Below are positions 55,181 to 59,141 of a stretch of DNA of 59,141 nt, in pieces (positions within the stretch are counted from its first letter, which is position 1; each line of letters opens with the position of its first letter). The stretch covers positions 31,790 through 90,930 of the forward strand of contig JAUXSE010000018.1 of NCBI GenBank assembly GCA_030681515.1, given 5' to 3'. A program made the translations under genes and the position numbers. The stretch is from Geothrix sp. (GTDB lineage: Bacteria > Acidobacteriota > Holophagae > Holophagales > Holophagaceae). A model generated the notes under the pieces. The model saw nothing but the letters and a program-made list of their open reading frames with translations, ran no database searches and was not told where the DNA came from.

Positions 55181-55242
55181 CCAAAAACTCCGGGAAAGAT
55201 GGGACGCAGTGCGAAACCGCAGATGGCGCAGAAAAGAGAAGT

Positions 55243-55320
55243 GGCCACAAAGAACACAAAGGGCACAAAAACAGGAGCTGCTGTGTCTTTCCCTTTGTGT
55301 GTTTTGTGTTCTTTGTGGCT
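55243..55320. repeat. Intergenic inverted element, ccacaaag type (element 2)
   Basis: Left arm GGCCACAAAGAACACAAAGG (55243-55262) faces right arm TTTGTGTTCTTTGTGGC (55303-55319), with CCCTTTGTGTG between; a snap-back of roughly 25 bp around a short centre. It fills the gap between the alkyltransferase-like gene and the DUF2203 gene. Confidence 0.7.
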
Positions 55321-55731: not shown

Positions 55732-56406
55732 ATGCGGTTCGTACCCCTGATTCCGTCCAGTTTTGATCCCGCGCCCTGGCTATCCCTCACGCCCGTGATG
55801 CTCCGGTGGGACGGCGCCCCCCACGGGGGATGGTCCCCGGCCGCGCGGCGGGGACTGGCCATCCATGCCGTGCATCTTTCCAGCGAATCCCCGGTGGAGG
55901 AGGCCCTGGAGGTCCTGCGCCACGGCCTTGAGGTGGATTTCCTGGTGATTCCCGTGCGTCGTCCCGAGACCCGGGAGGCGCGGTTCCAGCTCCTGGGGCA
56001 CCTGGAGACGCTGCTGGAGGCCACCGCGGGCCGGGGCATCAAGCTGGCGCTGCGGCTGGACTCTGATGCCGTGTCCACCGTGCAGGATCTGCTCCGCGAG
56101 GCCCGAGGAGAAGCCGTGGGCTTCTGCTGGCATCCCGGCATCCAGGATGCCGAACCCCTGGCGGATCGCCTCTGGTGCGGCGTCTGCGAACCCGGGACGG
56201 ATCTCCGCCCCTTGCAGGCCCTGGGCTACCGCTGGGACATGGCCCTGGCCGCCGAGGCTCCGGCCACCTTCCGCGCGCAGGCCGCCGCGCTCGAGACTGC
56301 CCATCCATCCGTGCTGTTCCCCGCGCAGATGCCCGCCACGGCCCTGGGGCGCCCGGTGGTGCCCGATGACAGCCTGGTGTTCGGAAAGCACTGGGATCGG
56401 TCATGA
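55732..56406 (+). CDS. Hypothetical protein coupled to lpxB
   Basis: A 224-residue protein, no family recognised. Alternating strand-helix pattern with conserved-looking ends of strands (VDFLVIPVRR, IKLALRLDSD, GFCWHPGI, LWCGVCEPG) suggests a TIM-barrel-like fold of the sugar isomerase type, but no metal ligand set is obvious. The stop overlaps the lpxB start by 4 bp (ATGA), so it is made with LpxB. Divergent from the DUF2203 gene over 28 bp. Confidence 0.65.
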   Translation: MRFVPLIPSSFDPAPWLSLTPVMLRWDGAPHGGWSPAARRGLAIHAVHLSSESPVEEALEVLRHGLEVDFLVIPVRRPETREARFQLLGHLETLLEATAGRGIKLALRLDSDAVSTVQDLLREARGEAVGFCWHPGIQDAEPLADRLWCGVCEPGTDLRPLQALGYRWDMALAAEAPATFRAQAAALETAHPSVLFPAQMPATALGRPVVPDDSLVFGKHWDRS

Positions 56407-57548
56407 CGCAGACGTTGCTGGTCATCGCCGGCGAGGATTCCGGCGATCTGCACGGCGCGGAGCTGCTGCGCGAACTGAAGGCCCGGCGCCCGGAGCTGCG
56501 GATCATCGGCGTGGGCGGACCGCGCATGACGCCACTGCTCGACCGCAAGCTGGCGGATGTGAAGGATCTCGCCGTGGTGGGCTTCATCGAGGTCATCCAG
56601 CACCTGCCGCGGCTGAACCGGCTCTTCAAACAGATCCTCGCCGCGGCGCGGGAGGAGGGCATCGCCGCCGCCCTGCTCATTGACTATCCGGGTTTCAATC
56701 TGCGGCTGGCCAAGGCCCTGCGGAAGCAGCTGCCCGGCGTGACGCTGCACCAGTATGTGTGCCCCCAGGTGTGGGCCTGGAAGCAGGGGCGCATTCCGGA
56801 CCTGGGCCGGACCCTGGACACGCTCTACTGCCTGTTTGATTTCGAGCCGGAGCTGTTCCGCGGCTATCCGGTGGACGCCCGCTTCGTGGGGCATCCCCTG
56901 GTGGAGGTGGTGAAGCCCGAGTGCGACCGCGCCACCTTCTTCCGCGAAACGGGCCTGGACCCCGCGAAGCCCCTGGTGGCGCTGCTCCCGGGTAGCCGCA
57001 CGGGGGAAATCCGGCACCTGCTGCCGCCCATGGCGGAACTGGCGCGGCGATGGACCATGGAGCGGCCCGAAGTCCAGTGGGTGCTGCCCGTGGCACCCAC
57101 GCTGGACCCGGCCTTCCTGCGCGCCCACCTGGGCACTGGTCAGAATGGGGCCCCCGTGACGCTGGTGCAGGACCGCACCTACGCGGCCCGGGCCTACGCA
57201 CAGGCGGCCTTGGTGGCTTCCGGCACGGCCACGCTGGAAACGGCCCTGCTGGGCACCCCCTTCGCCATCGTCTACAAGCTGAACGCCCTCACCTACCAGA
57301 TGGCCCGGCGCATCGTGAAAGTCCCCTTCTTCGGCCTCGCCAACGTGGTGGCCCGGCGCGAGGTGGCGCGCGAGCTGTTGCAAGGCGAGGTCAATCCGGA
57401 GCGGCTGGGGGTGGAACTGACCCGGTTGCTGGAGCCCGAGGTGGCTCGGCGCATTCGCGCCGAGTTAAGTGAAGTGCGCGGGCACCTGGGCGAACCCGGC
57501 GCCGCCGGGCGCGTGGCGGAGGATCTGCTGGGGAAGCTCAATAGCTGA
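56403..57548 (+). CDS. lpxB: Lipid-A-disaccharide synthase
   Basis: A 381-residue glycosyltransferase (GT19) that joins UDP-diacylglucosamine and lipid X in lipid A synthesis. It shows LLVIAGEDSGDLHGAELLRE, GVGGPRM, VVGFIEVIQHLPRLN, IDYPGFNLRLAKAL, YVCPQVWAWKQGRI, FVGHPLVEV, LLPGSRTGEIRHLLPPM, ASGTATLETALLGTPFAIVY and ELLQGEVNPERLG. Complete. Shows that the host has an outer membrane with lipid A. No other lpx gene nearby. Confidence 0.96.
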   Translation: MTQTLLVIAGEDSGDLHGAELLRELKARRPELRIIGVGGPRMTPLLDRKLADVKDLAVVGFIEVIQHLPRLNRLFKQILAAAREEGIAAALLIDYPGFNLRLAKALRKQLPGVTLHQYVCPQVWAWKQGRIPDLGRTLDTLYCLFDFEPELFRGYPVDARFVGHPLVEVVKPECDRATFFRETGLDPAKPLVALLPGSRTGEIRHLLPPMAELARRWTMERPEVQWVLPVAPTLDPAFLRAHLGTGQNGAPVTLVQDRTYAARAYAQAALVASGTATLETALLGTPFAIVYKLNALTYQMARRIVKVPFFGLANVVARREVARELLQGEVNPERLGVELTRLLEPEVARRIRAELSEVRGHLGEPGAAGRVAEDLLGKLNS

Positions 57549-57581: not shown

Positions 57582-57804
57582 GGCCACAAAGAACACAAAG
57601 AACACAAAGAACAACAAAAAGAACGCAATGGAAAGAACAAAGCCAATTCAGCCACCGATGGACACCGATTGAAAACTGATCAAGACATGGCCCCGAACAG
57701 GCCTGTGCGCGTTGGGTCGGCGCGCCTCCGCGCCCTTCACGTGAACCAGCCTTCACTCCTATTCCGGGTGACTCTTTTTTGTGCCCTTTGTGTTCTTTGT
57801 GGCT
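57582..57804. repeat. Intergenic inverted element, ccacaaag type (element 3)
   Basis: Left arm GGCCACAAAGAACACAAAGA (57582-57601) and further acaaag units, right arm CCCTTTGTGTTCTTTGTGGC (57784-57803). A caccgatggacaccgatt stretch lies within. The gap 57549-58315 holds this element, a spacer, a possible degenerate attC end and a weak reverse frame, but no strong gene. Confidence 0.65.
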
Positions 57805-58005
57805 ACTTCTTCATTTTCTTGCGGGGGACCGGGTTCGTGCCCTCAGAGCCAGGGGACGACTCACATGCGCCCGCCAAGCGAGGGACTCTGCGATTTCTGA
57901 TTCAACCTGATGCCCGGCATGACCGTTTGATCTACGATCCTCGGATCGTTCCTTTGCCCGTTCATGCGGCGTGCCCCCAGCCCCGGCCGATCCGCCCAAT
58001 TCAAA

Positions 58006-58012
58006 GTTAGGC
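58006..58012 (+). mobile_element. Possible degenerate attC end (GTTAGGC box)
   Basis: TCAAAGTTAGGC fits the attC right-end consensus GTTRRRY. I could not find a well-matched RYYYAAC left half upstream (ATTCAAC at 57901 is a weak candidate, 110 bp away). It would mark the left border of the first cassette. Confidence 0.3.
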
Positions 58013-58180
58013 CCGCTTCGTCCAAACCTGTTTTGTCTGTCGGGGTTCTTTCTCTGCAATTCGTCGGTTCGCTTCGGCCATCAGCTTTTCAAGAATAGCC
58101 TGGTTGCTCGTCCTGCCTGGTCCGTTCGGTTCCACCGCTCGTCGAATCGCTTTCATCATCGAAGCTCTGTCATTCTTCAT
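58007..58180 (-). CDS. Possible small reverse-strand cassette protein
   Basis: A 57-residue Arg/Lys-rich frame beginning MKNDRASMMKAIRRA. It is helical in the middle (QAILEKLMAEANRRIAEKEP). It lies between a GTTAGGC box (58006-58012) and the attC site at 58316, and its stop is inside the first box. The frame is open to 58267. No family recognised; it may be chance. Confidence 0.25.
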   Translation of the reverse strand: MKNDRASMMKAIRRAVEPNGPGRTSNQAILEKLMAEANRRIAEKEPRQTKQVWTKRA

Positions 58181-58315
58181 CCATCGTTCCGGCTCTCGTC
58201 CTGGCAACCCGTCACCTTTTTCACCTTGGGCTCGGCAGCATGAACCTTCGCGCTCGAACAATGTCACCTGAAACCAAACCTGCTCCGGGTTTGGTGGGTT
58301 CTGTTCAAGGGGCGT

Positions 58316-58439
58316 GCCTAACCGTCAGTTCAACTCGGACCCAACCTGCACGGCCTGGTTTCCTCTCTCGTGGTTCGTCCTTCCCGGCTTCGTTCATCGT
58401 TCGGTCGCAGGTTGGGCCGGTTAACCGTATTCGTTAGGC
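58316..58439 (+). mobile_element. Integron attC site
   Basis: Left box GCCTAAC (58316-58322) and right box GTTAGGC (58433-58439) are exact inverted copies. The inner arms also fold: TCAACTCGGACCCAACCTGC on the left with GCAGGTTGGGCCGGTTAACC on the right, pairing apart from a few unpaired bases on one side, as expected for attC extrahelical bases. Length 124 bp, in the normal range. Recombination would occur after the G of GTTAGGC. Confidence 0.8.
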
Positions 58440-58468
58440 CGCATCTCTCTCATCACCACAGGTATTTC

Positions 58469-58942
58469 ATGGACTTCCCGCCAGAACCGATCTATTTCTA
58501 TTTCCAGTTCATCGCGAAACTAATTCGCGCTGGTAGGGGTGAAGATAGCAAGCCCTATTTCAGGCTCAACTCTGAGATCAGCCATTCCGATTTTATTGAG
58601 TTTGCCAATAGGTTCATCGAAGATTACCACGCAACGGTATCACCAGAATTTGCCCTCACTCACCATATGAAGTTTTGTTTCGGGATCATCTCTGAAGATG
58701 GAATTATCCAGATGTGCCCAACGGTAAGATCCAAAGAGGTTCACAAATACCCAGCGATCAACGGCGGTATCCTTTACATCGAGACCATGAAAGATGAAAA
58801 GGAAGAGAATCGCACCTTAGATGGATCTATCTTTCGGCAAGCCTGTTTCATCCGAAGGGAACGATTGAAATTCCTAATCGCTGTGCTTGGATCTGCAGTC
58901 GCAGTTATTACGTTGGCGCTCTCTCTGTTCTTTAGGAAATAA
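58469..58942 (+). CDS. Orphan integron-cassette protein, membrane-anchored
   Basis: 157 residues, no family recognised. The soluble part (1-125; FRLNSEISHSDFIEFANRFI, LTHHMKFCFGIISEDGIIQM) is alpha+beta. A basic stretch (FIRRERLKF) is followed by one C-terminal membrane helix (LIAVLGSAVAVITLALSLFF) and RK at the end, so the protein is probably tail-anchored with the domain in the cytosol. Clearly lower GC than the core genes. It starts 30 bp after the attC site, which is typical of a cassette gene. Confidence 0.75.
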   Translation: MDFPPEPIYFYFQFIAKLIRAGRGEDSKPYFRLNSEISHSDFIEFANRFIEDYHATVSPEFALTHHMKFCFGIISEDGIIQMCPTVRSKEVHKYPAINGGILYIETMKDEKEENRTLDGSIFRQACFIRRERLKFLIAVLGSAVAVITLALSLFFRK

Positions 58943-58957
58943 ACCCAACCCCGTGCG

Positions 58958-58990
58958 GCCTAACCCTGCGCTCAAGTCGGACCCCGCCTG
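58958..58990 (+). mobile_element. attC-like left half
   Basis: GCCTAAC (58958-58964), then CCTGCGCTCAAGTCGGACCC, closely resembling the left half of the site at 58316. No matching GTTRRRY right half is seen before the window ends at 59141, so the site is truncated or very long. The last 200 bp show no other gene. Confidence 0.55.
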
Positions 58991-59141
58991 CATTGCCTCC
59001 CGCTCTTGTATGTTTCCCACGTCCGGAACCTTTCGAGCATCTGATGGATCAGACGACCGGAAGGAGGTCCGTGTTTCAAACGGGGGGATGGTGCCGATTC
59101 CGTTCATGGCGCTGAGATAATCGCCGAGAGAGAGATTCAGC

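Follow-up and report, generated by a model that had tools for sequence, protein, structure and literature searches.

Cassette array downstream of lpxB

The window analysed here, a stretch of 59,141 nucleotides, covers G000:C21:31790-90930 of a genome that groups with Geothrix (Acidobacteriota), and its right end is also the end of contig C21. The final core gene ahead of the array is lpxB (56403..57548, plus strand, like all features that follow), a 381-aa frame with homologues of 78–90% in 22 of the 24 genus relatives searched. It is followed by a leader motif common to other lpxB-locus heads (57928..57954), recognized by local alignment against shuffles, and by an attI-like core of 21 bp (57991..58011) overlapping the crossover box GTTAGGC (58006-58012), which is part of the attI-like head. 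The first cassette (58006..58439), without a convincing open frame, begins like the truncated cassette that comes last on contig C11 (76% over 71 bp), and it ends with an intact attC of 124 bp, attC 1 (58316..58439), identified by BLAST, a covariance model and folding. Then come a cassette gene (58469..58942), the left half of attC 2 (58958..59007), recognized by the covariance model, and the left end of an apparent IS110-family remnant (59008..59141). Around lpxB, CACAAAGAACACAAAG-type repeats were also observed at 55237-55271 and 57776-57810 (97% alike over 35 bp) and at about 57588-57625, the copies being both inverted and direct.

The sequence-only reading of this DNA had pointed to an AT-richer gene between the two attCs, and the open frame at 58469-58942 is indeed distinct in composition (44.7% GC versus 66.4% for the window). 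Its 157-aa product presents, by eye, a hydrophobic stretch at the C-terminus, and Pfam and PADLOC assigned it no family or function, the best Pfam match (E 0.064) being below the cut-off. Judged by sequence, the window holds the start of a small three-attC cassette array bounded by lpxB on one side and, on contig C38, by a conserved gene on the other. With attC 1, the split attC 2 and, through the C38 join, attC 3 on one strand, and no intI fragment found near the window array, it is a CALIN (at least two attCs on one strand, no intI nearby).

The attC family

attC 1 has the perfect complementary ends GCCTAAC and GTTAGGC, and a DNA fold of its bottom strand reaches –24 kcal/mol (z –3.16), with 1 of 200 shuffles doing as well, in agreement with the complete and foldable 124-bp site proposed from sequence alone. 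The same family was also found elsewhere in the genome: BLAST revealed 13 further copies with 70–78% identity, and a covariance model built from the 14 genome copies, window copy included, gave 20 matches at E ≤ 0.001, ten of them on C11, two each on C34, C38 and C30, and one each on C21, C5, C1 and C60, one of the two on C38 being the right-hand portion of the split attC. The window attC scored 121.6 bits, partly by construction, since this copy helped to build the model. Among the 14 copies, 96.1% of the pair cells were paired and four pairs varied on both sides, pairing and covariation each being reached by at most 2 of 500 column shuffles. Rfam returned no attC-like family at the window attC and one chance microRNA match only. 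Alignment columns 16, 20 and 24 were invariant, unpaired and facing the continuous arm, which we take to be consistent with the extrahelical bases of attC sites. The elements are thus attCs by their R″ and R′ boxes and their paired arms with unpaired landmark bases, and a changed end box was found in each of the three aligned singletons (two on C34, one on C5) and in the C11 copy 5694. Shorter variants were also observed, namely 66-nt sites in L150 and L149 and sites of about 108 nt in L154-L157 and L165, mixed into the G002 arrays and predominant in G019.

Split attC and contig join

The last 74 bases of the window are identical to the end of C38 and have no other occurrence in the genome; beyond them, C38 carries the right half of an attC, then one more attC (L161:2501-2624) and the genes that follow lpxB in relatives. 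Because of this unique overlap and of the gene order in relatives, C21 was joined to C38, which places the next conserved gene 3507 bp behind lpxB. A join of the C21 array to the C11 array at its free end was considered and rejected, since the two are not suitably oriented and the overlap is with C38. On C38, the split attC is also followed by a pair of frames that look BrnT-like by eye.

The loop of attC 2 is interrupted at 59008, which explains why its left half scores only 19–21 bits; the attC-like left half perceived from sequence alone is therefore real, though it belongs to an attC split by an IS110-family element. The break position is identical in L179, L181, L184 and L031 (Geothrix fermentans). 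The relative in L179 carries a transposase frame with PF01548 and PF02371 (DEDD_Tnp_IS110, Transposase_20), which assigns it to IS110, and 248 nt separate the element start from this frame. A long non-coding region before tnp is described as the IS110 layout, and one after tnp as that of IS1111 (PMC11187229). On C38 the transposase frame resembles its relatives over about 42 codons, after which it passes into the attC; therefore, unless the assembly is wrong there, the copy in attC 2 is a remnant by its sequence. An IS110-family element would have entered the attC 2 loop after the array was formed and then itself been cut short. The left end of the element is present in 4 of the 31 genomes; the left-end comparison comprised five copies and left out L180 and L182 (exact string absent), L183 (probably the same record as L031) and four weaker G008 matches. 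ISKpn4 and ISPst6 are likewise DEDD-transposase insertion sequences targeting attC, but they are described as elements of the IS1111 type, in which the long non-coding region follows tnp, and as targeting one attC end (PMC11187229), whereas the L179 relative has its 248 nt before tnp and enters the attC loop.

The lpxB locus in relatives

The sequence-only reading considered the region behind lpxB a hot spot, a proposal that comparison with relatives supports. Among 22 relatives' lpxB loci, the distance to the next conserved gene was 47–178 bp in seven and 1.7–5.3 kb in nine, and in six this gene was not found. attCs occur behind lpxB in five of the 22 (G006, G007, G008, G014, G017) and, judged by flank, in G041 too. 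In G004, G011, G023 and G024 the gap is filled with no attC match, and no core was visible by eye at the empty lpxB sites. Compared with shuffles that preserve single-base composition only, the alignment of the window leader (57928-57954) beat 500 of 500 for L138 and L166, 499 for L169, 493 for L137, 468 for L139 and 420 for L136; the likeness is thus strong for two of the six other lpxB leaders and weaker for the rest.

The integrase and the integron on C11

The cassettes had been read as lacking an integrase, which holds for the neighbourhood of the array but not for the genome, where an intact intI lies on C11 with ten attCs of the same family. The 343-aa frame has an IntI part scoring 458.2 bits against a cut-off of 265 for the integron integrase family, and nearly its full length aligns to the integron integrase structure 2a3v (E 2.9e-84). 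The ten attCs lie upstream of intI and point away from it in the standard integron layout, set apart by different DNA and open frames; with intI, attI and attC array together, C11 carries a complete chromosomal integron. One of its cassettes (L009 2526-3043, minus strand) has two small frames that resemble a toxin of the BrnT type with its partner (E 5.6e-05 for Pfam BrnT, which is below the cut-off).

The best 19 IntI matches among named genomes (L017-L035) show 81–88% identity and all bear the name Geothrix or Holophagaceae. Across 25 genus genomes, the present one included, 18 have an intI match of at least 479 bits, two have a partial one (G005, G013) and five have no intact gene. A more distant IntI (67–69% identity) was also noted at G019:C1:166051, G012:C7:169433, G003:C97:881 and G011:C188:26849, being second to the main IntI in three of these four genomes. 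A tyrosine recombinase on C34 was considered as a second IntI of the present genome and rejected, its pieces of 93.8 and 75.2 bits being below the 265 cut-off and the profile positions between 179 and 239 unmatched. This gene (L010 2245-3829, minus strand) adjoins a transposase gene, IS91-like by eye, and lies about 5 kb before a single attC.

The attC model found matches in all 25 genomes on which it was run. With the two genomes carrying a partial intI set aside, the counts were 1–8 in the five genomes without an intact intI and 5–104 in the 18 with one (medians 3 and 30; p 0.001, main arrays counted and kinship ignored), and the difference persisted among genomes at least 90% complete (3 versus 14 genomes, p 0.006).

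attI-like cores across the genus

A core like CGTCCAAT..AAAGTTAGG is common to the intI-linked heads of the genus. Under a profile of 18 intI-linked attI cores, the window core at 57991 scored 29.4 bits; it is an exact pattern match with the GTTRRRY crossover box of attI, lies away from the intI gene on C11, and had not been mentioned in the sequence-only reading. The same profile gave one match of at least 14 bits and none of at least 18 on 1 Mb of simulated DNA, and a best score of 15.0 bits (95th percentile, 6.9) in 300 random 3-kb window segments. Run over 599 kb of loci, it marked heads of remote arrays in G002 (four), G006, G007 (two), G008, G014, G017 and on C30 of the present genome, where the core is 2.1 kb before the first attC; matches of 15–20 bits also fell inside arrays or at unrelated places. 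attI-like cores were seen inside arrays at L148:4265, L158:18547 and L160:5320, perhaps cassettes ending in an attI piece, and also at the heads of L025 and L029.

A pattern search with up to two mismatches in 31 genomes yielded 55 cores in 17 genomes, against 8 for the reversed-pattern control; the pattern was designed after orphan sites had been seen, and the 55 matches include about a dozen of these. Fourteen of the 31 genomes had no match. The surroundings of all 55 cores were read in draft assemblies, which can conceal intI or attC: ten adjoin intI, and 38 of the other 45 have same-strand attCs no more than 2.5 kb downstream. Apart from a mirror row in L224, the core regions contained no attC upstream of the core or on the other strand. 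This neighbourhood count entered 134 of the 136 attC rows, leaving out L223 6990-7019 (a cut-off piece, same strand, downstream) and L224 1131-1255 (plus strand, 23.7 bits, the mirror of a 132.6-bit attC there). Three of the seven non-intI cores without an attC lie so close to a contig end that no more than 354 bases remain. One core with a single mismatch, G024:C1:194762 (L225:3501), has no attC within 3.5 kb and is possibly an empty platform.

Upstream flanks sorted 25 of the 45 non-intI cores into six groups of 6, 5, 5, 4, 3 and 2 genomes, of which only the six-genome group was verified as one locus, by lpxB; G004:C27 groups with the intI locus and the remaining 19 stand alone. Certain places with attCs gave no core: the two large remote arrays of G019 reached 4.3 and 4.2 bits at best, and no pattern match was found at the remote places C3:83835-84848 and C1:563376-564027 of G007 or at the single attCs C2:402191 and C1:1562475 of G002. 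None of the five single-attC places in the present genome reached 14 bits, and two of these singletons, C34:30176 (13.4 bits) and the one on C5 (10.1), exceeded the background 95th percentile of 6.9. Promoter scans of two leaders found none.

Cassettes shared between integron and orphan heads

The six first cassettes of the lpxB locus showed no mutual similarity at E ≤ 1e-8. Sharing was observed between intI-linked and orphan heads, some of the named loci evidently being assemblies that also appear among the numbered genomes (100% over 488 bp), so that the true-attI entries are not all independent. For example, one cassette occurs twice in G001, behind the true attI in L101 and behind an orphan core in L248. 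The two copies agree at 94.2% over 362 bp, and at both sites the shared DNA begins at GTTAGG while the preceding DNA differs, which is the border that a site-specific crossover would leave. This is a 238-bp cassette with no clear frame, and it also stands immediately after an orphan core in G014 and after the true attI of L030. At a contig end of G006, an orphan core is likewise followed by the first 127 bp of the cassette shared by G001 and G014; this stretch, identical to the end of L029 and L105, may be an assembly overlap of two copies. Moreover, an orphan core of G014 was linked to the true attI of G008 by a 326-bp alignment (79%). The different first cassettes behind lpxB in six genomes, together with the G001 cassette common to both sites, suggest continued exchange.

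Origin of the remote arrays

We consider it probable that one IntI serves the orphan attI platforms, among them the window array with its attI-like head. The IntI of C11 would most likely recombine the folded bottom strand of attC with the window core in trans, cassettes entering the lpxB site through the G|TTAGGC box (58006) in the way they do at a true attI. That IntI recombines at orphan cores, and that the lpxB site was filled in this way, we infer from the anatomy of the array and its borders, the integrase elsewhere in the genome, the head core, its recurrence at array heads and the cassette sharing exactly at the crossover. Throughout the genus, several orphan attI platforms at shared loci would thus depend on one integrase, forming a distributed integron. 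It is somewhat more doubtful, though still favoured, that this is a standing multi-port design in which each platform has its own array, rather than off-target scatter or decay.

Off-target insertion, intI loss and rearrangement have been proposed as origins of the common integrase-free attC clusters (PMC8618304). Under the first of these, an accepted origin of CALINs in that source, IntI would have put cassettes at chance secondary sites of the attG type, attI-like only through the preference of the enzyme. The window and the lpxB group, which carry mainly the core, and the singletons of the present genome, which have no clear core, are as such insertion would have it. We nevertheless hold it unlikely, considering that 27 of the 55 cores match without mismatch, 19 of them away from intI, and that the leaders upstream of the core are alike between species at lpxB and between the different loci L150 and L153 (83% over 105 bp). 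In addition, a second attI motif at the same distance, –43/–44 (at least 8 of 10 bases), was found in 15 of the 45 non-intI cores, against 6 of 1122 control windows; the window core has 6 of its 10 bases, a value that two of the ten intI-linked sites do not exceed either.

We give still less credit to the possibility that the remote arrays are relics, each having once had its own intI, since lost, with an attI and cassettes that no longer turn over. G004:C3 does retain a decayed intI piece (58 aa, 60%) next to such a core, the G004:C27 core stands without intI in the flank group of the intI locus, and the lower attC counts of genomes without an intact intI fit with decay. However, no intI piece (E ≤ 1e-5) was detected beside the other 44 non-intI cores, nor near the window array, and the lpxB first cassettes that differ in each of six genomes and the G001 cassette present at both sites speak against arrays at rest. 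As to origin, the loss of former integrases and service by one IntI can both be true together. Finally, a dispersed repeat mistaken for attC, of which the singletons of C34 (two) and C5, with their altered end boxes, might be reminiscent and which the sequence-only reading had named as its own possible refutation, has practically no chance, being refuted by the ten C11 copies in tandem beside intI, with different DNA and open frames between them and covarying arms.

Comparison with known systems

Integrons in Acidobacteriota (PMC8618304, PMC8352920) and CALINs at conserved loci are already known; the new part, on the present sequences, would be the attI-like head of the remote arrays. The open-licence literature, outside which most subscription journals lie, yielded no integron report for Geothrix or Holophaga and no name for an arrangement of orphan or multiple attI, or of an intI-free attI heading a CALIN. 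The sedentary chromosomal integron of Xanthomonas similarly combines one ancestral intI locus with intI-free attC arrays at other recurring loci, but no attI is reported at their head in the accessible portion of that source (PMC12444791), whereas an attI-like core heads many arrays here. Shewanella CALINs and single attCs (SALINs) also lie far from intI, in genomes with and without it (PMC9229058); those CALINs are described with 2–6 attCs, in contrast to remote arrays of up to more than 20 attCs (G002), headed by cores, in the present genus. At attG sites, too, cassettes enter the genome outside the integron; these sites are described as unlike attI or attC and widely scattered (PMC12901181, PMC12444791), whereas the Geothrix cores match the genus attI and recur at shared loci.

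If true, a multi-port design would explain remote attC clusters that recur at fixed places. An attI-like head site is a further possible reason why integrase-free attC clusters are found again and again at fixed loci and remain filled. Arrays at present classed as integrase-free could then serve as functional docking ports for an integron located elsewhere in the genome.
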